Source: Nitrospirota bacterium (GTDB lineage: Bacteria; Nitrospirota; Leptospirillia; Leptospirillales; Leptospirillaceae). From it: a stretch of 45,097 nt of DNA. This document shows, one piece after another, positions 5,096 through 18,114 of this stretch. Under the pieces are notes generated by a model that did not search any database, was not told where the DNA came from, and saw only the letters and a list, made by a program, of their open reading frames with translations. Location of the stretch: positions 1 to 45,097 of the forward strand of contig JAKAWK010000003.1 of assembly GCA_021827365.1 (NCBI GenBank), written 5' to 3'. Position numbers and translations under genes: made by a program. Within the stretch, counting starts at the first letter, position 1. The number at the start of each line of letters is the position of its first letter.

Positions 5096-6670
5096 ATGGA
5101 CAGGAAAGACAATGATTTTCTGAAAATCATCCAGGAACCAGAGACACAGGATTCGGGGTGCTCCGAAAAGTCGACTTGCGGAAGTTCCGCGGGGCCTTCT
5201 GACATGGATCCGGAAGTCTGGGAGAAGGTCAAGAACCATCCGTGCTATAGCGAGGAAGCCCATCATTTCTATGCCCGCATGCATGTTGCCGTGGCTCCGG
5301 CCTGCAATATCCAGTGCAACTACTGCAACCGGAAATACGACTGCTCCAACGAATCCCGTCCCGGGGTCGTCTCCGAGCGACTGACACCCGAGCTTGCCGC
5401 CAAGAAAGTCCTGGCGGTTGCCTCGGAGATCCATCAGATGACGGTCGTGGGGATAGCCGGGGCCGGAGACTCCCTGGCGAATCCTGAAAAAACTTTCAAA
5501 ACCTTCGAGCTGATCTCGAAGGCCGCCCCGGACATCAAGCTCTGCCTCTCGACCAACGGTCTGGCCCTCCCCGACATGGTGGACCGAATCGCGGACTACA
5601 ATGTCGACCACGTCACCGTGACCATCAACATGGTCGATCCGGAGGTCGGGGAAAGAATTTATCCGTGGATTTTCTTCGACAAGAAGCGGTGGAAAGGGCG
5701 GGATGCAGCCAGGATCCTCTCCGAGCGACAGCTCCTGGGACTCGAGATGCTGACGGCCAGAAAGATTCTGGTCAAGGTCAACTCGGTCATGATCCCCGGG
5801 GTCAACGACGAACACCTGAAGGCGGTCAACCGCGAGGTGAAGAAGCGAGGGGCTTTCCTTCACAACATCATGCCCCTCATCTCCGAGCCCGAACATGGAA
5901 CCTTTTACGGGCTAACGGGACAGCGGGGACCCACGGCTGAGGAGCTCAAGCATCTCCAGGACTCCTGCGAGGGAGAGATGAACATGATGCGCCATTGCCG
6001 CCAGTGCCGGGCCGACGCCGTGGGGCTCCTTGGAGAGGACCGTTCCGCCGAATTCACCAACGAAAAAATCGAGGCCATCGAGATCACCGACGTGGCCTAC
6101 GATCTGACGGCCCGGGAGGCCTATCGCGACAAGGTCGAAGAGACCCGGGAAAAGGAGCGGAAAATCAAGGAGATGCTCGCCGGACTCGGGAAGGGAAAGG
6201 GCCTTGAGGGGGAGCCGCCCATTCTCGTCGCTGTGGCGACAGCGGGGGAGGGTCTGATCAACCAGCACTTCGGCCATGCCCGGGAGTTTCAGGTCTATGA
6301 AGTGGATGCCACCGAAGCCAAATTCATCGGTCACCGCCGTGTCGACCTCTATTGCGAAGGGGGGTACGGAGAGGAAGACTCTCTTTCCCGGATTACCGCC
6401 GCCCTGTCCGACTGCGTGGGGGTGATGGTAGCCAAGGTCGGGGGATGCCCGAAAAAGACCCTGGAGGAGGCCGGGATCCTGCCGGTCGATCGCTATGCCT
6501 ATCAACCGATCAAGCCGTCCCTTCTCCAGTGGTTTTCTGAATATGTGGAGGGAGTGCGCGCCGGGAAGATCACCCCCAGGGCCGGGAGCGGACAGACGAA
6601 AATCAGGTCCGGGGCATTCACGGCTCCCTCCCCTCTTCCCGGACAGATCCCCCTTGCGGTTTTGAAATAG
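5096..6670 (+). CDS. nifB: Nitrogenase cofactor biosynthesis radical SAM protein NifB
   Basis: NifB, the radical SAM enzyme that builds the [8Fe-9S-C] NifB-cofactor and inserts the central carbide. The 524-residue protein is the two-domain form. The radical SAM domain spans about residues 45-330 and has Cys70-x3-Cys74-x2-Cys77 (CNIQCNYC), the [12 protein letters not shown] motif and the [10 protein letters not shown] cysteine pair. A NifX-like cofactor-binding domain covers about residues 370-490 ([19 protein letters not shown]). The roughly 50-residue N-terminal part contains the usual Ser/Cys-rich linker. A GGAGGAG site precedes the ATG. The ferredoxin gene downstream, 12 bases away, is the likely electron donor partner. 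Confidence 0.98.
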
Positions 6671-7359: not shown

Positions 7360-7878
7360 ATGTCCTCCCGCGTTCTGACTGAGACGAAAAACTGGGAAGA
7401 GGATTCGGCCGGGCTTTTTCCTCCGGCGCCCCCGGAAGCCCTGGCGCTTCTCCGGGAGGTTTCCCGATCCTTTGCCGACACGGAGAGGGCGCAAAGCTTT
7501 CTTCGGGAGGCCGACCGGCTCTATGGAAATTCTCTGCCGGTGGTGGTCGGATGTTACAAGTTTTATTTTTACAAGGGCCTCCTCCGGGAGGCGATTCCCT
7601 TCGCCCTGCGGGCAGCGGAGATGATGGGACAACGTCTGGGGCTCCGCCAATCCTTCATGGAGGTTTCCGAGACCGAGGCTCCGTTTTCAGACTATGTGGC
7701 CGGTCCGAGATTTTATCTGTTTGCAATGAAGGCTGCGGGCTATCTTTATGCCCGCTTGGGTGAGACGGCAAGAGGTCTTGAAATTCTGGAGAAGATCCGG
7801 ACCCTCGACAAAAGTGACCGACTGGGTGTCTCCCCGCTGATTGCCGTGATCAGGCGGGCGGGAAAGGAGGAGGAATGA
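7360..7878 (+). CDS. nif-linked protein of unknown function, TPR-like helices
   Basis: A 172-residue soluble protein that I do not recognise as a named family. It is predominantly alpha-helical, with segments such as EALALLREVSRSFADTERAQSFL and AAGYLYARLGETARGLEILEKI that look like tetratricopeptide-type helical hairpins. A middle segment is rich in Tyr and Phe (YKFYFYKG). It starts 3 bases after the HesB-like gene and overlaps the LRV gene by 4 bases (ATGA), so it is translationally coupled to nif genes on both sides. It may be a helper or adaptor for Fe-S or NifB function. That is a guess from position only. Confidence 0.75.
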   Translation: MSSRVLTETKNWEEDSAGLFPPAPPEALALLREVSRSFADTERAQSFLREADRLYGNSLPVVVGCYKFYFYKGLLREAIPFALRAAEMMGQRLGLRQSFMEVSETEAPFSDYVAGPRFYLFAMKAAGYLYARLGETARGLEILEKIRTLDKSDRLGVSPLIAVIRRAGKEEE

Positions 7879-8657
7879 GAGTCTTCTGCGGAGTCCGCAA
7901 CATCCCGGAAAATCCCGAACTCGCCGCACCCGGCCCGGATCCCTGCGCCGGGTGCCGGGTCCATTCCCTGAAGCCGCAAACCCGGTGCGACCCGTCCTCT
8001 TCCTGCGTACGGACGACCTATGCCCGCCATATCGAGCGATTTTTCCGGAAAAATCCGGGCCTGGCCGAACGATTCTGGAAGGACGACTACTTTGAAACCC
8101 GGGCCATCGTGACGCGGTATCTTCCGCAGGACCTTCTCGAGAAGATGGTCAGGGATTCCGACGAGACGGTCCGGATGAATGTCGCCCTGTTTCTCAGTCC
8201 TCCCCGGCTTGTCCGGATGATGGAAGATCCGGACAGGGAGGTCCGGATCCGGGTGGCGGCCAGGATCCCGGTCGCATTTCTGCCGATGATGGCCTCGGAC
8301 TCGGATTATTACGTACGCCATCAGGTGGCGTTGAGGATTGCCCCCTCGGCGCTTCTTTTCATGAGGAACGATCCCGACCCCGAGGTGAGAAGGGTTGCGG
8401 CCAGGCGGATCCCTTCCCCCCATCACCGGCTTTTTCAGAAGGATCCCGACGCCCTTGTCCGGATCGAGGTCCTTGCCCGGGGAGGGTCCGATCTTTGGAT
8501 GGAGGCGCTCGAGGATTCGGATGTCAGGGTCCGCTTCTGGCTGGCCGAACACGCCTCGGGAGAGGCGCTGGTCCATGTCGCCGCGGACTCCGATCCCTTC
8601 CTCCGGCAGATTGCCCTCCGGCGCCTGGGGGAGGGGAAGGGGAGGGCGGTGTCATGA
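7875..8657 (+). CDS. LRV leucine-rich-repeat-variant protein with N-terminal Fe-S cluster domain
   Basis: A 260-residue relative of the Azotobacter nif-linked LRV protein, which has a right-handed superhelix of alternating alpha and 3-10 helices and an N-terminal [4Fe-4S] domain. The first 45 residues hold cysteines at 5, 24, 27, 38 and 44 (CAGC...CDPSSSC), fitting the LRV_FeS domain. About seven repeats follow, roughly 24 residues each, with recurring D-x-x-VRxxVA units (SDETVRMNVA, DREVRIRVA, DPEVRRVAA, DVRVRFWLA). Function is unknown in the family; linkage to nifB and nifS suggests a role in Fe-S or cofactor assembly. Both ends overlap neighbouring genes by 4 bases. Confidence 0.9.
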   Translation: MRVFCGVRNIPENPELAAPGPDPCAGCRVHSLKPQTRCDPSSSCVRTTYARHIERFFRKNPGLAERFWKDDYFETRAIVTRYLPQDLLEKMVRDSDETVRMNVALFLSPPRLVRMMEDPDREVRIRVAARIPVAFLPMMASDSDYYVRHQVALRIAPSALLFMRNDPDPEVRRVAARRIPSPHHRLFQKDPDALVRIEVLARGGSDLWMEALEDSDVRVRFWLAEHASGEALVHVAADSDPFLRQIALRRLGEGKGRAVS

Positions 8658-9814
8658 GCCCCTCGTCTTTTGTCGACCTCGACTCTTCTGCCACCACTCC
8701 CGTCTCCGATCGGGTCATGGCCGCCATGCTTCCCTGGTTTCGCGAGATCTATGCCAACCCCGGAAGTCCCAATCCGGAGGGGGAGCGGGCGAAGGCCGCG
8801 GTTATTAAGGCCAGAGAGTCTCTGGCGGAGTTCCTGGGGGCCGAAACGCGGGAGATTCTCTTTACGAGCGGCGGGACGGAGTCGAACCAGGCGGCGGTCC
8901 GTTCGGCTCTCCGGGCCCGGCCCGAACGGCGGACACTCTTGCTGAGCGCCGTCGAGCATTCCTCGATCCTCGGACTTATTCCCGACCTCGAGCGGGAAGG
9001 GTTTAAGGTTTCCGTCATCCCGGCCGGGAAGGATGGACGCATCGACCCCGGAGAGGTTTCAGCGCTTGCGGACAACAATACGGCCCTCGTGGCGGTCATG
9101 TATGTCAACAATGAAACGGGAGCGATCAATCCCGTCGAAGAAATCGGAGAGATCGCCCACAGGGCCGGGGCTTTTTTCCTCTGCGACGGAGTCGCCGCCG
9201 TCGGGAAAATTCCGGTGGACGCCAAGACAGTCCCGGCGGATTTTCTGTCGCTTTCGGGCCACAAGATCCATGGCCCCAAGGGGACGGGAGCCCTTTTTGT
9301 CCGGAAAGGGGAAGCGTTTCATCCCCTGATGCCCGGCTCCCAGGAGAGGAAACGCCGGGGAGGGACGGAAAATGTCCCCGGGATTGTCGGGCTGGGAGAG
9401 GCGGCCCGGGAGTCGCGCGAGTTTCTGCTGGAGGGACCCGGGCGACTGGAGAGGCTTCGGGACCTTCTGGAAGAAGGGGTTTTCTCTCTTTATCCGGAAG
9501 CCCGGAGGAACGGCCCGGAAAACTCCTCCCTTCGGGCTCCCCATATGGCCAACCTGTGTTTCCCGGGGATGCCGGCCGAGAAGATCCTTCTGGCTCTTGT
9601 CCGGGAAGGGATCTATGCCTCCATGGGGTCGGCCTGCTCCACCGGAGCACTGGACCCTTCCCATGTTCTCCTGTCCATGGGGCTCTCCCGGGAGGCCGCT
9701 CTCTCCTCCCTCCGATTTTCCCTCCCCCGCTGGACCAGTTCTGGCGATATCGACCGGACTCTTTCCTCGCTTGGCCGCATTCTCGGCCAGGGGGCAAGCC
9801 GGAGGGTTTCATGA
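8654..9814 (+). CDS. nifS: Cysteine desulfurase NifS
   Basis: A 386-residue PLP-dependent cysteine desulfurase that supplies sulfur for nitrogenase Fe-S clusters. Motifs seen: TSGGTESNQA (residues 71-80), His102 (AVEHSS), Lys204 forming the PLP Schiff base (SGHKIHGPKG) and the active-site Cys328 in GSACSTGALDPSHVLLSMG. The segment usually reading DAVQ-AVGK reads DGVAAVGK here, so the Gln that normally contacts the PLP ring hydroxyl is Ala181. The start overlaps the LRV stop (ATGA), and the stop overlaps the next gene in the same way. The symbol nifS rather than iscS rests on context. Confidence 0.95.
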   Translation: MSPSSFVDLDSSATTPVSDRVMAAMLPWFREIYANPGSPNPEGERAKAAVIKARESLAEFLGAETREILFTSGGTESNQAAVRSALRARPERRTLLLSAVEHSSILGLIPDLEREGFKVSVIPAGKDGRIDPGEVSALADNNTALVAVMYVNNETGAINPVEEIGEIAHRAGAFFLCDGVAAVGKIPVDAKTVPADFLSLSGHKIHGPKGTGALFVRKGEAFHPLMPGSQERKRRGGTENVPGIVGLGEAARESREFLLEGPGRLERLRDLLEEGVFSLYPEARRNGPENSSLRAPHMANLCFPGMPAEKILLALVREGIYASMGSACSTGALDPSHVLLSMGLSREAALSSLRFSLPRWTSSGDIDRTLSSLGRILGQGASRRVS

Positions 9815-10974
9815 ACAGTCGGGACGAGAGAGGGAGGGTCGAAAAACGGATCCCGTTTGACACTCCCCAATGGAGCGACGGCGAGGTGTCAGCCTTCGTG
9901 GAAAGTCTGGGACGGGAGGCTTACGAGACTCCGGTCGAAAGCCTGGAGAGCCGTCTGGCATTCGTCTTCGGGAGAGCCCGGGCCCTTGTTGTGCCGACGC
10001 CCTCTGTGGCGCTCTTTCTTGTGATGTCCGCGCTGGAAATCGGGGAGGGGGACGAGGTCATCGCTTCCCCCCTATCCTGGTTCGCAATGGCCCGGGCCGT
10101 CGCCTGGCGAAGGGCGACCCTCAAGGTTTCCGACATCGATGCCTGGTCATTCACTCTCGATCCGGAAAAGGCGGCGCGGAAGATCGGTCCCCGGACCCGG
10201 CTCCTTCTGGTCGCCAATTCCCTGGGACATCCCGCCGACTGGAAGCGTTTTGAGGCGTTGTCGCGAGAGAGATCGACCGTGCTTGTCGAGGATGCGACAG
10301 AATCCCTCTTTTCCGAGTCCGGGGGGCGCCGGACAGGGAGTTTCGGGGACATCTCCATTCTGGCTTTCGGCTCCCCCCATCCCAATCTGGGAGAGTCCTA
10401 TGCCGCGATTCTCACGGACCGGGAGGATCTGGATCTCCTGTTCCGGGCACTTCGGGGGGGGAGGTCTGAAAAGCTTCCTTCGGGAACACCGCCGCTCCTC
10501 CCGATGGATGTGCTCCTCTCCCCGGGAATGGCGCGTCTGGGGCTGATGTCTTTGAGACGGTTGCCCGCCGGACTCAAGAAAAGGGCTCTGATTCTTGAGT
10601 CCTATCAGGAAAGTATGCGCTCCTTTGAAGGGGTCAAGGACCTTTACCAGTCCCCTAGTGTCGATTTCGTGAACTGGTTTGCCTACCTGGTTCACCTGGG
10701 AACGCGCTTTTCGGTTCTCTCTAGAAACGCCATTGTCGAGGATCTTTGCGGGGCAGGGATCGAGGCGCGTCCCTTTCCGGCGCCTCTCCATCTGCATCCC
10801 TGGTTTTTGGCCCGGGGATTTCACAAAGGGATGGCCCCCATCGCCGAGAAGCTGGCTGAGAGGGCCATCGCCCTTCCCTTCCATCCCGCCATGGGAGCAG
10901 AAGAAGCGTCTCTGATTGTCGAGCGTTTCAAGGAGGCCGCCACCAATGTCGGGGCTGGATCCGCCATTTACTGA
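9811..10974 (+). CDS. DegT/DnrJ/EryC1/StrS-fold PLP protein lacking the usual lysine
   Basis: A 387-residue fold-type I protein of the sugar-aminotransferase (DegT/AHBA synthase) group. Recognisable parts are the N-terminal TPSVALFLVMSALEIGEGDEVIASPLSW (about 63-90), the VEDATESL motif with Asp161, and GSFGDISILAF before the active-site loop. Where members have Lys followed by Asn-Leu, this protein reads GSPHPNLGE, so no Lys is present; His190 or Pro191 fills the place depending on the gap. The dehydrases ColD and RfbH use His there, so a non-aminotransferase chemistry or a purely structural role is possible. It overlaps nifS by 4 bases. No sugar-biosynthesis genes are near, so the substrate is unknown. 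Confidence 0.82.
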   Translation: MNSRDERGRVEKRIPFDTPQWSDGEVSAFVESLGREAYETPVESLESRLAFVFGRARALVVPTPSVALFLVMSALEIGEGDEVIASPLSWFAMARAVAWRRATLKVSDIDAWSFTLDPEKAARKIGPRTRLLLVANSLGHPADWKRFEALSRERSTVLVEDATESLFSESGGRRTGSFGDISILAFGSPHPNLGESYAAILTDREDLDLLFRALRGGRSEKLPSGTPPLLPMDVLLSPGMARLGLMSLRRLPAGLKKRALILESYQESMRSFEGVKDLYQSPSVDFVNWFAYLVHLGTRFSVLSRNAIVEDLCGAGIEARPFPAPLHLHPWFLARGFHKGMAPIAEKLAERAIALPFHPAMGAEEASLIVERFKEAATNVGAGSAIY

Positions 10975-11023: not shown

Positions 11024-11236
11024 ATGGAGATGATTCATGTCGTGTTTTTCAACGACGGGAGCGTGAAAAAAATCTCCGGGTGTCCGGATGGGTTCGGGGG
11101 ACAGGACTGGTTCAATTTTTTGTCGCGGAAGACCCGCGACCGGTACGAATCCCTCTCGGGCGGGAGGGGCGTCTTTCGCCTGGAGCCGGGAGATGCCGAA
11201 TATCTCGCCAGGGAAGCCTCCGGAATCTGGAAATAG
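11024..11236 (+). CDS. Small nif-cluster protein of unknown function (70 aa)
   Basis: A 70-residue protein that I cannot assign. It starts at ATG 11024 (or 11030) after AGGGAGG at 11008-11014. The N-terminus, MEMIHVVFFNDGSVKKISG, looks like two beta strands. The rest is polar, with several aromatic residues and no Cys pair beyond Cys56's absence from the second half; the single Cys is in SGCPDGFGG. It lies between the DegT-like gene and nifZ, with 24 bases before nifZ, and is surely cotranscribed. Small beta-rich nif accessory proteins such as NifT are similar in size, but I see no real match. Confidence 0.7.
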   Translation: MEMIHVVFFNDGSVKKISGCPDGFGGQDWFNFLSRKTRDRYESLSGGRGVFRLEPGDAEYLAREASGIWK

Positions 11237-11260: not shown

Positions 11261-11578
11261 ATGGCAGACGGAGATATCGTGGAGCTGACAGGGCCCCCCT
11301 TTTTCGAATTCGGGGAGAAGGTCCGGATCAAAAAGCACATCAGAAATGATGGAACCTTTCCCAATAAGGATGTCGGGGAGATCCTTGCGAGAAAGGGGGA
11401 CGCCGGTTACATCCGGAGTATCGGAACCTTCCTCCAGCAGTTCTATATCTATGCCGTCTACATTCCGGAGACGGGGGTGACGGTCGGGTGCAAGCGCCGG
11501 GAGCTCGAGTCCCTCGACTATGACGACAGCCCGGAGGAAGGGGCGTCGACGGAGTCTGCCCGAGAGAGGGACCCATGA
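11261..11578 (+). CDS. nifZ: Nitrogenase P-cluster maturation protein NifZ
   Basis: A 105-residue NifZ, which in Azotobacter helps form the second P-cluster of the MoFe protein. The family core is clear: FFEFGEKVRIKKHIRNDGTFP, EILARKGDAGYIRSIGTFLQQFYIYAV and VGCKRRELESLDY. The last 20 residues are acidic and probably flexible. The ATG follows AAAGGAG. The stop overlaps the start of a second, related gene by 4 bases. Confidence 0.93.
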   Translation: MADGDIVELTGPPFFEFGEKVRIKKHIRNDGTFPNKDVGEILARKGDAGYIRSIGTFLQQFYIYAVYIPETGVTVGCKRRELESLDYDDSPEEGASTESARERDP

Positions 11579-11910
11579 AGAAGCGCGGCGATTTGCCGAG
11601 CCGGTACCGCCCTGGCCAGAAGGTGGCCATCCTTCGCGACATCGAGAACGATGGATCTTACAGGACAATGTCGGTTGGCGCCCTCCTGGCCGGGGAAGGG
11701 GAGCAGGGAGAAATCCTGGGAGTTGGCTATCAGGAGGAGAAGCGGGTGGTCTACTTCGTCCTCCTTGTTCCGGAAAATCGGGTGATCGGCTGTTTCGAGG
11801 AAGACCTTTTTCCGGCAAAAACGGCCGGTCGTCTTTCACCAATGCGGTCCGGCGGGCGCCCGGGCCGCAAAAAAACCGTCGGAGGTTCAGGGCATGGACG
11901 AGATCTTTGA
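11575..11910 (+). CDS. Second NifZ-domain protein
   Basis: A 111-residue divergent paralogue of the preceding NifZ. It keeps the pattern YRPGQKVAILRDIENDGSY followed by LLAGEGEQGEILGVGY and a closing strand VYFVLLVPENRVIGCFEEDL, with about 30 basic residues appended. It lacks the IGTFLQQFYIYAV signature of true NifZ. Tandem NifZ-type genes are known in some diazotrophs as single long proteins with two such domains. Here the two domains are on separate, translationally coupled genes. A P-cluster assembly role is inferred. Confidence 0.8.
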   Translation: MKKRGDLPSRYRPGQKVAILRDIENDGSYRTMSVGALLAGEGEQGEILGVGYQEEKRVVYFVLLVPENRVIGCFEEDLFPAKTAGRLSPMRSGGRPGRKKTVGGSGHGRDL

Positions 11911-12456: not shown

Positions 12457-12717
12457 ATGGAAGAGAACGTGGTCAGGGATGTGGCCGAATTGGTCGACCT
12501 GAACTGGCAAGGGCTGGGACGGGGAACGCTCAGGCTTCTCCGGGAGCGGTTCCCCGGGATCGTCTTCATCGCCGTCCCTGCCTCCGATGTGACGGAAGAG
12601 CCCTTTCGGCAATCCGGGAGGGTGGGGTTCCATTTCATCAACACAACGGACCATTGCGTGTCGCTGGTCTCGGATCGGCGGGCGGCAGGAGGAATCCTGC
12701 TGGCCGTCAGGGAGTGA
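12457..12717 (+). CDS. Small nif-linked protein, DUF6129-like
   Basis: An 86-residue soluble protein. The pattern LRLLRERFPGIVFIAVPASDV, then VGFHFINTTDHCVSLVSDRRAAGGILLAV, resembles the small family annotated DUF6129 that occurs near nifT/nifZ in diazotrophs; this is from memory and needs a search. No catalytic motif is visible. The ATG at 12457 follows AGGAGGGGAG, 13 bases after nifT. The next gene starts 5 bases downstream, so it is well inside the operon. Confidence 0.72.
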   Translation: MEENVVRDVAELVDLNWQGLGRGTLRLLRERFPGIVFIAVPASDVTEEPFRQSGRVGFHFINTTDHCVSLVSDRRAAGGILLAVRE

Positions 12718-12722
12718 AGACG

Positions 12723-13613
12723 ATGACACCGGATTCTGTTTTTACGGGAGCCCCCTCGACCGTCCCGGAGCTTCTGGAGGAGGAAATCTCCGAAAAGATC
12801 GATGAAATCGCCGATCTCTGGAAAAGGGGAGATCTTATCGTCTACCTGGGGCCCGAACTCTATCCGGAAAGCCCGGACTTTCCGACAGACCCAAAAGGCC
12901 TCGCCGACCTCCTGAGCGGACGTGTGGCGGTCCCGGGGCGACTTGTGGGACGACTCCATGAAATCGCCCAGTATATCGAATCCCACAAGCACAGGAAAAC
13001 CCTTCTCTCCCTGATGGGGGAGATTTTCCGGAAGAAGACCGCCCCCTCTCCGGTCCACCGCCTCCTGCAGATGTTTCCGGTCGGGCTGGTTGTCGACACC
13101 TGGTATGCCCCCGGTTCTTCGGAATTTCTGGTCGGGCCGGGAGATCTCCAGATCAGCGGGGTGAGCCGGGCCGAGTACCGGGACCGATGGTTCCGGATCG
13201 ACCGCCGGACTTCCTCCGGTTGGGAGCCGGCGGCGGAGGTCCCGGCCGGGGCCCGTGTCCTCTACCGTCCCCTGGGGACCATGGATCCGGGGGTGGAGGT
13301 GCTGGTTTCCGATGCCGACTTTGTGGAGGTCCTCACAGAGATCGACATCCAGACTCCCATCCCTCCCTTTGTGCAAAAGCACCGGAGCGGACGCCATTTC
13401 CTGTTTCTTGGCTGCCGCTTCGACAGCCAGACCTCCCGCATTTTTGCCCGTCAGATCATGAAACGCTCTTCGACAAGCCATTTTGTGGTTCGTTCGGGGA
13501 CCCTCACAGGCAAGGAACAGATCTTTTACGAACGAGAGGGGGTCGCACGTCTTTCGCTCTCCCTCAACGAAGGTTTTCTTCCGGAGCTCGAAAAGAGGCT
13601 CCGGCTTGGGTGA
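12723..13613 (+). CDS. nif-linked SIR2-like domain protein
   Basis: A 296-residue protein whose first half has the layout of SIR2_2-type Rossmann domains. It has GDLIVYLGPE where the Gly-rich loop would be, then LADLLSGRV, LHEIAQYIESHKHRKTLLSLM, PSPVHRLLQMFP and LVVDTWYA where family members have a TNYD-like motif. In the second half RHFLFLGCRFDSQTSRIFARQI repeats a strand-helix unit typical of these domains. The GAG and Asn-Tyr-Asp motifs are both altered, so NAD binding is uncertain. SIR2-like genes occur in other nif clusters to my knowledge, with unknown function. The start is ATG 12723. Confidence 0.68.
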   Translation: MTPDSVFTGAPSTVPELLEEEISEKIDEIADLWKRGDLIVYLGPELYPESPDFPTDPKGLADLLSGRVAVPGRLVGRLHEIAQYIESHKHRKTLLSLMGEIFRKKTAPSPVHRLLQMFPVGLVVDTWYAPGSSEFLVGPGDLQISGVSRAEYRDRWFRIDRRTSSGWEPAAEVPAGARVLYRPLGTMDPGVEVLVSDADFVEVLTEIDIQTPIPPFVQKHRSGRHFLFLGCRFDSQTSRIFARQIMKRSSTSHFVVRSGTLTGKEQIFYEREGVARLSLSLNEGFLPELEKRLRLG

Positions 13614-14378: not shown

Positions 14379-14693
14379 ATGAAGATGGTACGTGCCATAG
14401 TCCGGCCGGAAAAGGAAAATGATGTCGTCCTGGCGCTTGAGGCCAAGGGATTCCCCGCCATGACCAAGACCCATGTCTTCGGCCGGGGAAAGCAAAAGGG
14501 GCTGAAGGTGGGTCCGATCCATTACGACGAGCTTCCGAAGGTCATGCTCATGATCGTGGCGGAGGATCCGGAGGTCCCGGTCATCGTCGAGGTCATCAAA
14601 AATGCGGCCTATGTGGGCTACGAGGGGGACGGAAAGATCTTCGTCACGCCGGTGACGGAGAGCTATACCATACGGACCGGGGAAAAGATCTAG
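14379..14693 (+). CDS. nifI1: PII-family nitrogenase regulator NifI1
   Basis: A 104-residue PII-like protein. It opens MKMVRAIVRPEKENDVVLALEAKGFPAMTK, has the T-loop region FGRGKQKGLKVG and ends with the PII signature YEGDGKIFVTPV. The T-loop is short and lacks the uridylylated Tyr of GlnB, as in NifI1. In methanogens NifI1 and NifI2 form a complex that binds the MoFe protein and blocks activity until 2-oxoglutarate rises. Here the pair lies late in the operon, not between nifH and nifD as in archaea. The start is ATG 14379 after AAGGAG. Confidence 0.92.
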   Translation: MKMVRAIVRPEKENDVVLALEAKGFPAMTKTHVFGRGKQKGLKVGPIHYDELPKVMLMIVAEDPEVPVIVEVIKNAAYVGYEGDGKIFVTPVTESYTIRTGEKI

Positions 14694-14724
14694 AGAGTCC
14701 ACGCACAAGGAAGGAGTGACGACG

Positions 14725-15147
14725 ATGCTGGTCGAAATTACGGCGATCATTCGCCGCGACAAGGTGGCTCCCACGATGCGGGGCCTCGACGCCATGGGGC
14801 TCGGGTCGATGACGATCACGACGGTGAGCGGCCGGGGACTCCAGGGGGGAAATGTCATGACCGATCTCGACCGGGAGATCCCCGCCGAGTACGACGCGGT
14901 CTCGAAAATTACCCGGAACCTGACTCCGGCCTCCTTTGCGCTGGTGCACTCCCTGACCCGGCCAGTCTTCTGGATCCCGAAGCGCATGCTCCAGATCGTC
15001 GTCCCCTCGGGAATGAAGGACGAGGTGGTCGACATGATCATGAGCCTCAACCGGACCGGATGGATGGGAGACGGGAAAATTTTCATAAGTCCGGTCGAAG
15101 ACAGTCTCCGGATCCGGACGGGAGAACGGGGGCTGGAATCGGTGTGA
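14725..15147 (+). CDS. nifI2: PII-family nitrogenase regulator NifI2
   Basis: A 140-residue partner of NifI1. It has the longer T-loop (GRGLQGGNVMTDLDREIPAEYDAVSKITRNL) and the insertion around FWIPKRMLQIVVPSGM, then the PII signature WMGDGKIFISPVEDSL. The start is ATG 14725, eight bases after AAGGAG at 14711-14716; a GTG at 14716 overlaps the site. With NifI1 it should give post-translational switch-off of nitrogenase when nitrogen is plentiful. The 148 bases after the stop contain T6 and T5 runs (TTTTTT at about 15169) and a stretch relatively low in GC but no strong stem, so a weak terminator or new promoter there is possible and unproven. Confidence 0.92.
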   Translation: MLVEITAIIRRDKVAPTMRGLDAMGLGSMTITTVSGRGLQGGNVMTDLDREIPAEYDAVSKITRNLTPASFALVHSLTRPVFWIPKRMLQIVVPSGMKDEVVDMIMSLNRTGWMGDGKIFISPVEDSLRIRTGERGLESV

Positions 15148-16165: not shown

Positions 16166-17344
16166 ATGGAGGAGCGGAAGGAGGCACCGGCCGGAGCGCC
16201 GGTCTTTGTCGACACGACTCTCCGGGACGGAGGCCAGTCCCCGGGGGTTTTCTTCGACCGCCCCACCAAGATGGCCGTGGTGACGACGTTGTCGAGGATC
16301 GGGGTCAGAGAGATCGAGGTGGGGTCCCCCTGTCTGGGCGATCGGGAGATCGAGGATCTGAAGGTCCTTTTGTCTCTTCCGGTCCCCGCCGAGCTTTTTC
16401 CGTGGCTCAGGCCCGTCGAGGAGGATTTCGAGGCCGCCCTGAGGCTGGGTTTCCGGCGGGTCCACCTCTCCTTTCCGACCTCCGATCTCCACATGGCCGT
16501 TGTCCGGGGGATGGGCCGGGAGGAAACCCTTGAGCGGGTCCGGGGGGCGGTCCGGAGAATGGTTGGGGAGGGATGCCGTGTCTCGGTCGGTCTCGAGGAT
16601 GCCTCCCGGGCGGAGATGGAATTTCTCAAGGAGATTGTCATGGCCGTCAAGGAGGCCGGAGGGATCCGGGTCCGGTATTGCGACACCGTCGGCCGTCACC
16701 ATCCCCTGGAGATTTTTGAGCGGATATCCGTGTTGTCCTCCCTGGGGCTTCCGGTCGAGATCCACTGCCACAACGACCTGGGCCTGGCAACGGCCAACAC
16801 TGTCTCGGCCGTTCACGCCGGGGCGAACTTTCTCTCGACGACGGTCACCGGGGTGGGGGAACGGGCCGGAAATGCGGTCATGGAGGAGGTGGCCTTTGCC
16901 CTGGCATTTTCGGGAAAGGGGTTGGAGACCGGGATCGACTTTCCTGGACTGGCCCATATCTCGAGGTGGCTTTATGCGGAGATCGGCCGCACTCTCTCCC
17001 CCTACCGTCCTGTCGTGGGGTCCCGCATCTTCCACCACTCTTCGGGGATCCATGTGGACGGCGTCATCAAGGAGCCGGCCAACTATGAACTCTTCCCGCC
17101 GGAGCTCGTGGGGCTCAAGAGAAAGATCGTGGTGACCCACCAGACGGGGCGGTCCGGCATCCGCAATGTCCTCGAGCGGATGGGCTACCGGCCCCCTCCC
17201 GAGATCCTGGACAGGCTTGTCCCCATCATCCGGGCGGAGGGATGGAAGCTGAAGGGAATCGTTCCGGCCCAGACAATACTCAACCACTTCATGGCGATCG
17301 TCGAGTCAGGTCAGGGAATCTCTCCCGCGAGGCAGGGGTCATGA
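16166..17344 (+). CDS. nifV: Homocitrate synthase NifV
   Basis: A 392-residue member of the alpha-isopropylmalate/homocitrate synthase family, making the homocitrate ligand of FeMo-co from acetyl-CoA and 2-oxoglutarate. Motifs are VDTTLRDGGQSPGVFF near the N-terminus (residues about 14-29; Arg, Asp and Gly of the metal/substrate site), VGLEDASRAE, YCDTVGRHHP, the metal-binding HCHNDLGLATAN and GVGERAGNA. The C-terminal lid includes GSRIFHHSSGIHVDG. The regulatory leucine-binding domain of LeuA is absent, as expected for NifV. ATG 16166 is preceded by AAGGGGG. The stop overlaps the next start (ATGA). Confidence 0.95.
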   Translation: MEERKEAPAGAPVFVDTTLRDGGQSPGVFFDRPTKMAVVTTLSRIGVREIEVGSPCLGDREIEDLKVLLSLPVPAELFPWLRPVEEDFEAALRLGFRRVHLSFPTSDLHMAVVRGMGREETLERVRGAVRRMVGEGCRVSVGLEDASRAEMEFLKEIVMAVKEAGGIRVRYCDTVGRHHPLEIFERISVLSSLGLPVEIHCHNDLGLATANTVSAVHAGANFLSTTVTGVGERAGNAVMEEVAFALAFSGKGLETGIDFPGLAHISRWLYAEIGRTLSPYRPVVGSRIFHHSSGIHVDGVIKEPANYELFPPELVGLKRKIVVTHQTGRSGIRNVLERMGYRPPPEILDRLVPIIRAEGWKLKGIVPAQTILNHFMAIVESGQGISPARQGS

Positions 17345-18114
17345 GCCCGGCGGAAACCATGGCCGCCCGCCAGATGACTCTTCCCGGCTGGACTCCGGAA
17401 AATCAGGAGCGGCTCGGGAAGAGCCGCGTCTTTCTGGCCGGGATCGGGGGTGTGGGGGGGATCGTGGCCCAGTATCTCGCGATGGCCGGAGTGGGAGAAC
17501 TGACCCTGGTCCACGAGGGGGTGCTCGAGATGCCCGACCTGAACCGGCAGACCCTCATGGAGCTTTCGGGACTTGGAAAAAGCCGCGTGGGCCAGGCCTC
17601 CGAACGCCTCGCACGGCAAGCCCCCGCTTGCCGGATCACGGCCATCGACGCCCGTGTTTCGGGCTGGATGGAACCCCTTGTGGCCTCCGCCGACCTTCTT
17701 GTCGATGCCCGGACGAACTTCGAGGAGCGTTTCCTCCTGGGCCGGCTGGCGCGCAGGGCCGGAAAGCCTCTGGTCTTTGCCGCGATGAACGGGATGGAGG
17801 GTATGGTGGTGCCCCTCGGGCCCGGGAGTGGGCCCTGTCTTGAATGCCTGTTCCCCGAAGGGGATCCGTCCTGGGATCCCCTGGGTTTTCCGGTTCTGGG
17901 AGCCGTGTCGGGGGCGGTCGGGGCCATGGCATCCGTCCTGGCCATACGGATCCTTTCCGGATACGGGGGAGTTCCCCTGTCCCGGATGACCGTTTTCGAG
18001 GGAATGGACCTGTCGACCCGATCTTTCCGTATCCGGAAAAACGGTCGGTGTGCGGCTTGCCGGGAGGGGGCGGTGCCAGAGGCGGCCGATCACGAAAAAC
18101 CATGGAGGCGATGA
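17341..18114 (+). CDS. HesA/MoeB/ThiF-family E1-like adenylating protein
   Basis: A 257-residue E1-like protein of the HesA type, a family found in cyanobacterial and other nif clusters and linked to Mo or sulfur metabolism. GIGGVGGIVAQYLAMAGVGEL at about 36-56 is the nucleotide-binding loop and LNRQ (residues near 69-73) holds the catalytic Asn-Arg of the family. Two Cys pairs, CLEC and CAAC, would bind structural zinc. The modified partner protein is not evident, since no MoaD/ThiS-like gene is in the window. It is coupled by overlap to nifV and modA, suggesting work on molybdenum or sulfur supply. Confidence 0.88.
   Translation: MSPAETMAARQMTLPGWTPENQERLGKSRVFLAGIGGVGGIVAQYLAMAGVGELTLVHEGVLEMPDLNRQTLMELSGLGKSRVGQASERLARQAPACRITAIDARVSGWMEPLVASADLLVDARTNFEERFLLGRLARRAGKPLVFAAMNGMEGMVVPLGPGSGPCLECLFPEGDPSWDPLGFPVLGAVSGAVGAMASVLAIRILSGYGGVPLSRMTVFEGMDLSTRSFRIRKNGRCAACREGAVPEAADHEKPWRR

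Follow-up and report, generated by a model that had tools for sequence, protein, structure and literature searches.

The window considered here, that is, the whole stretch of DNA analysed (45,097 nucleotides), carries within a nif gene cluster a gene for a DegT-like protein that has no lysine at the position where enzymes of this family form a Schiff base with PLP. The locus raises the question of what such a protein does next to genes for nitrogenase assembly. The list of proteins needed for an active nitrogenase is still open, and it bears on the transfer of nitrogen fixation to other hosts. In this respect, a nif-linked pseudo-aminotransferase, publicly annotated as an ordinary 'DegT aminotransferase', is a concrete candidate factor for nitrogenase building.

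The gene is located at positions 9811-10974 on the plus strand, like the other window features given below between 5096 and 13613, and encodes 387 amino acids. Its start codon overlaps the stop codon of nifS in the sequence ATGA (9811-9814). The protein is homologous to the DegT family over its full length (Pfam PF01041, E=3.4e-47, 161.9 bits for a cut-off of 19.8). Its AlphaFold2 model has a pLDDT of 90.7, and the nearest PDB fold is that of GDP-perosamine synthase (TM 0.84/0.89, Foldseek, E ~1e-30). When the protein was compared with sugar aminotransferases, the fold and the pyridine-binding Asp were found; the Lys, the phosphate-binding Ser and the N-Y-R motif were not. A pseudogene or a sequencing error is ruled out by open reading frames that are unbroken in relatives from many genomes and by a dN/dS of about 0.12-0.14 against congeners (NG86). 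The family is under purifying selection and its fold is kept.

Where the lysine should stand was examined by several routes. The former Lys loop is ISILAFGSPHPNLGE (residues 181-195, 10351-10395, from sequence and alignment). Counting forward from the conserved Gly-Asp (D180), the canonical place of the Lys, D+10, is occupied by His190 (codon CAT, 10378-10380), while counting backward from NLGE leads to Pro189, because the window's lineage lacks one residue downstream of the site. By either count, there is no Lys. When the protein is aligned together with ArnB (Lys188), GDP-perosamine synthase (Lys186) and 18 further ordinary DegT proteins, His190 stands in their Lys column, as the initial annotation had proposed, and comparison of the family profile with PDB sequences makes the Ser of relatives fall in the same column. 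The same annotation gave Lys-Asn-Leu as the ordinary DegT motif; this holds for some DegT proteins, whereas perosamine synthase has Lys-Ile-Ile.

The family was assembled by scanning species genomes with the family alignment, from which 467 relatives were obtained and the best 80 retained. Together with plasmid and class-sample members, these make 90 aligned rows, and at least one of the genomes, that of L105, is included twice. Lys is present at the site in 20/20 ordinary DegT proteins and in 0/90 rows of the nif-cluster family, a count that refers to the 80 most similar of the 467 relatives, so that rare Lys-bearing members are possible. The residues found instead are Ser (40), Gly (31), His (10), Ala (4), Phe (4) and Gln (1). 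Judged from these alignments, the absence of Lys is far beyond chance. It is not a selection effect either, since the search seeds, SFEGxK and VHLGxRF, do not include the Lys loop. For the two seed motifs, conservation is in part a circular finding, though members of the class sample, which were detected by profile, also carry them. No homologue with a Lys was found among the 90 rows, nor was a lower-scoring DegT protein found near nifD in the 35 nifD-positive genomes. The view that the protein lacks the PLP lysine is thus upheld, and the loss is common to the nif homologues. A shift of the Lys to a nearby position was also considered and rejected: the loop has no conserved Lys at all, and the fully invariant ones are K276 and K374. 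The His, in contrast, is seen in the window's lineage only.

Other parts of the PLP site are lost too. Five residues before the Lys position, ordinary enzymes have the phosphate-binding Ser (role from PMC5936713). In the 90 rows, this position is Asp in 78, Ala in 10, including the window (Ala185, 10363-10365), Ser in one and Gln in one. In Spr1654, a sugar aminotransferase, the cofactor phosphate is held by that Ser and a Thr, and for PMP that is not covalently bound, the phosphate is the main anchor (PMC5936713). With the Ser lost, ordinary non-covalent binding of PMP would therefore be unlikely as well. The N-Y-R / K-Y-N motif of ordinary DegT proteins is also missing. According to the alignments, the family has thus lost the Schiff-base Lys, the phosphate Ser and the N-Y-R motif. 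The pocket is nevertheless not fully erased: the pyridine-N1 Asp161 (10291-10293) and Glu164 are kept in 90/90 rows, and residue 90 is aromatic in all rows, as in PLP enzymes. With these residues retained, the pocket may still bind a ligand.

The distribution of the family links it to nitrogen fixation. Two genome samples were used, one of 274 genomes from the class of L105 (Methylococcus) and one of 289 from that of L104 (Bradyrhizobium). Family members are present in 8/274 and 3/289, and all 11 carriers are nifD-positive. As nifD is present in 35/563 genomes and the family in 0/528 nifD-negative ones, the association is strong (Fisher p=1e-14, two of the 11 carriers being the chosen sample centres). 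Profile scores split cleanly, with family members at 479 bits or more and all others at 330 bits or less. The family is nif-specific. Its carriers include Leptospirillum relatives, methanotrophs, Azospirillum, Bradyrhizobium, Paraburkholderia and Verrucomicrobia; tractable diazotrophs such as Azospirillum lipoferum, Methylococcus capsulatus and Xanthobacter autotrophicus are among them. The gene is absent from 24/35 of the sampled nif genomes and is therefore not essential to all nitrogenases. A strongly scoring gene for a nif SIR2-like protein is found in 11/11 DegT carriers versus 4/24 other nif genomes (p=3e-6), and the gene for a DUF6129-like protein is more widespread (25/35 nif genomes). 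Literature searches with DegT and nif terms and with DUF6129, covering sources outside subscription, returned no description of the family, and a prior mention is possible. The same literature yielded neither a genetic nor a biochemical test of the gene, and the nif-cluster papers covered do not name it.

The genes around it point in the same direction. In nearly all of 80 loci, the context is that of a nifB operon, with the typical order nifA, nifB, ferredoxin, IscA/HesB, TPR protein, LRV_FeS, two NifZ, DUF3024, NifS, NifT, DUF6129-like, DegT, 2Fe-2S ferredoxin, small protein and SIR2-like. Among 58 loci with ample flanks, the SIR2-like protein is present in 57, NifB in 55, NifS in 53 and the DUF6129-like protein in 50. 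The window contains NifB (radical SAM and NifX-like domain, 5096-6670), a conserved cluster protein homologous to the TPR protein of other nifB operons (7360-7878), the 4Fe4S leucine-rich-repeat-variant protein LRV_FeS (7875-8657), NifS (8654-9814), the DegT protein, a small conserved cluster protein (hyp3, 11024-11236) and two NifZ-domain proteins (11261-11910). The DUF6129-like protein (hyp2, 12457-12717), which in other lineages is the usual direct upstream neighbour of DegT, and the SIR2-like protein (12714-13613), which occurs with the DegT gene in almost every cluster, are found further downstream. With this context, a role in Fe-S or cofactor assembly, as raised initially, remains the best guess.

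Several neighbours deserve attention in their own right. The DUF6129-like protein has 86 residues and is common in nif clusters; its confident model (pLDDT 94.6) matches no PDB entry at E<0.001 and so gives no hint of function, and it is possibly an unseen fold. The SIR2-like protein, found in essentially all these nif operons, matches no PADLOC or NCBIfam model. In a nifA double mutant of Rhodobacter capsulatus, one SIR2 family protein from nif cluster A went undetected (PMC6925177). Downstream of nifW, the window also encodes an adjacent pair of divergent P-II-like proteins (14379-14690 and 14716-15147), far under the P-II equivalog cut-offs, which are possibly regulators of the NifI1/NifI2 type. 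Between nifV and modA, a ThiF/MoeB-like adenylyltransferase (17329-18114) scores well under all equivalog cut-offs.

Apart from what it has lost, the family has features of its own. Asn136, Trp144, SFE-x-x-K (271-276), His295, Gly297, Arg299-Phe300 and a C-terminal tail NxGAGxxIY are among those that almost all nif rows have and that are rare in ordinary DegT proteins. Asn136 is present in at least 95% of the rows, and His140 is invariant in a 55-row alignment. Lys276 (10636-10638), in SFEGxK after the inter-domain helix, is invariant (90/90) and does not belong to the ordinary DegT consensus. The tail, NVGAGSAIY in the window (10945-10971), is absent from ordinary DegT proteins; its GAG is conserved in 90/90 rows and was not among the search seeds. 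The last block of the model has a mean confidence of 62, and the tail is its least confident part apart from the N-terminus. Conservation combined with low model confidence suggests a docking peptide. In the tree, a branch with an SH-aLRT of 100 separates the 39 nif rows from the others, and they make up a single clade. We infer that the PLP site was lost once, in a DegT aminotransferase ancestral to the family, and that selection then kept the protein within maturation operons of the nifB type.

Considering these data, the family has probably become a non-PLP helper for building nitrogenase. The proposal that it is a repurposed, PLP-free DegT accessory in the maturation of nitrogenase Fe-S clusters or FeMo-cofactor appears to us reasonably probable. 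The ancestor would have been a PLP-dependent DegT sugar aminotransferase, its nearest solved relative being GDP-perosamine synthase, and PLP chemistry would then have been lost. The protein would keep the DegT homodimer, and the dimer would serve as a scaffold or chaperone for maturation of an Fe-S cluster or of NifB-co/FeMo-co. It would dock on a Nif partner through the flexible C-terminal tail and a family-specific small-domain surface (SFEGxK, VHLGxRF). Any residual ligand of the pocket, held by Asp161, Glu164 and often Asp185, would not be PLP bound in the usual way. The fuller version of this proposal, a widespread nitrogenase maturation factor used in several phyla, whose PLP-emptied fold would provide a scaffold or bind another ligand in Fe-S/NifB-co assembly and would work by way of the C-terminal peptide, is put forward more tentatively.

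A first alternative is that the protein serves NifS specifically, as a structural or regulatory partner such as an accessory of the desulfurase. NifS belongs to PLP fold-type I, as does the DegT fold. The idea came from the ATGA coupling, which is real in the window, and it agrees with the state of NifS in these clusters, where the catalytic His, Lys and Cys are kept in 68/68 cases and 43/58 full loci have nifS no more than 3.5 kb away from the DegT gene. The window NifS also has intact catalytic residues; with 412 bits, under the NifS equivalog cut-off of 530.75, it represents a divergent NifS type. However, direct coupling is limited to the window's lineage: the gene directly upstream of DegT is that of the DUF6129-like protein in 63/79 loci, nifS in only 9/79 and nifT in 7/79, and nifS is farther than 3.5 kb or undetected in 15/58 full loci. 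The locus survey thus contradicts NifS as a constant neighbour. Moreover, the DegT protein is not related to NifS in sequence, with no Aminotran_5 match to class V desulfurases and no significant BLASTP similarity to the window NifS. Since the coupling that suggested it is lineage-specific, the partnership is weakened as an explanation, and we consider it unlikely, if still conceivable.

In a second alternative, new chemistry would have arisen. The emptied pocket (Asp161, Glu164, Asn136, His140 and often Asp185) would bind another small ligand or a metal, or the invariant Lys276 could in principle, from its conservation, act as a new nucleophile. The conservation of these residues described above is in favour of such an activity, as is the new acid Asp185 in place of the phosphate ligand in 78/90 rows. 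Nevertheless, the window's lineage and L096/L103 have Ala instead of Asp185, the residue in place of the Lys varies freely, as a catalytic one would not, and Lys276 is in the small domain by sequence. New chemistry is accordingly judged quite improbable.

Finally, a His-type PMP-dependent dehydratase of the ColD/RfbH/E1 kind, with His190 as catalytic acid/base, is scarcely credible, even though ColD/E1 3-dehydratases carry His in place of Lys (PMC8987622) and His190 shares its alignment column exactly with the His that the RfbH of the same genome has there. Most family members have Ser or Gly where this model calls for His, and where RfbH retains the phosphate Ser, the window has Ala and most relatives have Asp. 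The RfbH model gives 68.6 bits on the window protein for a cut-off of 423, as against 739.9 bits on a true RfbH encoded on another contig of the genome, with the site FYPAHH and the phosphate Ser intact. The family alignment and this separate RfbH rule out His190 as a catalyst of that type, and the analogy drawn initially has to be abandoned. RfbH is placed on the Lys side of the tree, and the two His states therefore arose separately, although the RfbH branch is long.

Comparison with known systems helps to place the family. By profile score, its nearest non-members in the class sample are the Lys-bearing DegT proteins L123/L124 (about 330 bits). They have the same loop length (FYPNKQxTTGEGG) but differ in having the Lys and N-Y-R and in lacking the GAGxxIY tail. 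GDP-perosamine synthase (3bn1/3dr7) and the PF01041 sugar aminotransferases share with the family the fold (TM 0.84-0.89, about 24% identity), a full-length profile match and the Asp, Glu and aromatic residue of the PLP pocket; the nif proteins differ from them by the absence of the Schiff-base Lys, the phosphate Ser and the N-Y-R motif and by the additional conserved C-terminal tail and the location in nif clusters. NifS is encoded in the same operon without detectable sequence similarity, and retains its Lys and Cys. ColD and E1 (RfbH) resemble the family in the DegT fold, in the replacement of the Lys and, for the window's lineage, in the His at the site. In the nif family, however, this His is not conserved (10/90 rows), the phosphate Ser is lost, and the four conserved Cys that would carry a 2Fe-2S cluster of the E1/SpnQ type (PMC8987622) are missing, as only one Cys column reaches 70% (66/90) and the window has Gly there. 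The nif family also forms a separate branch of the tree.
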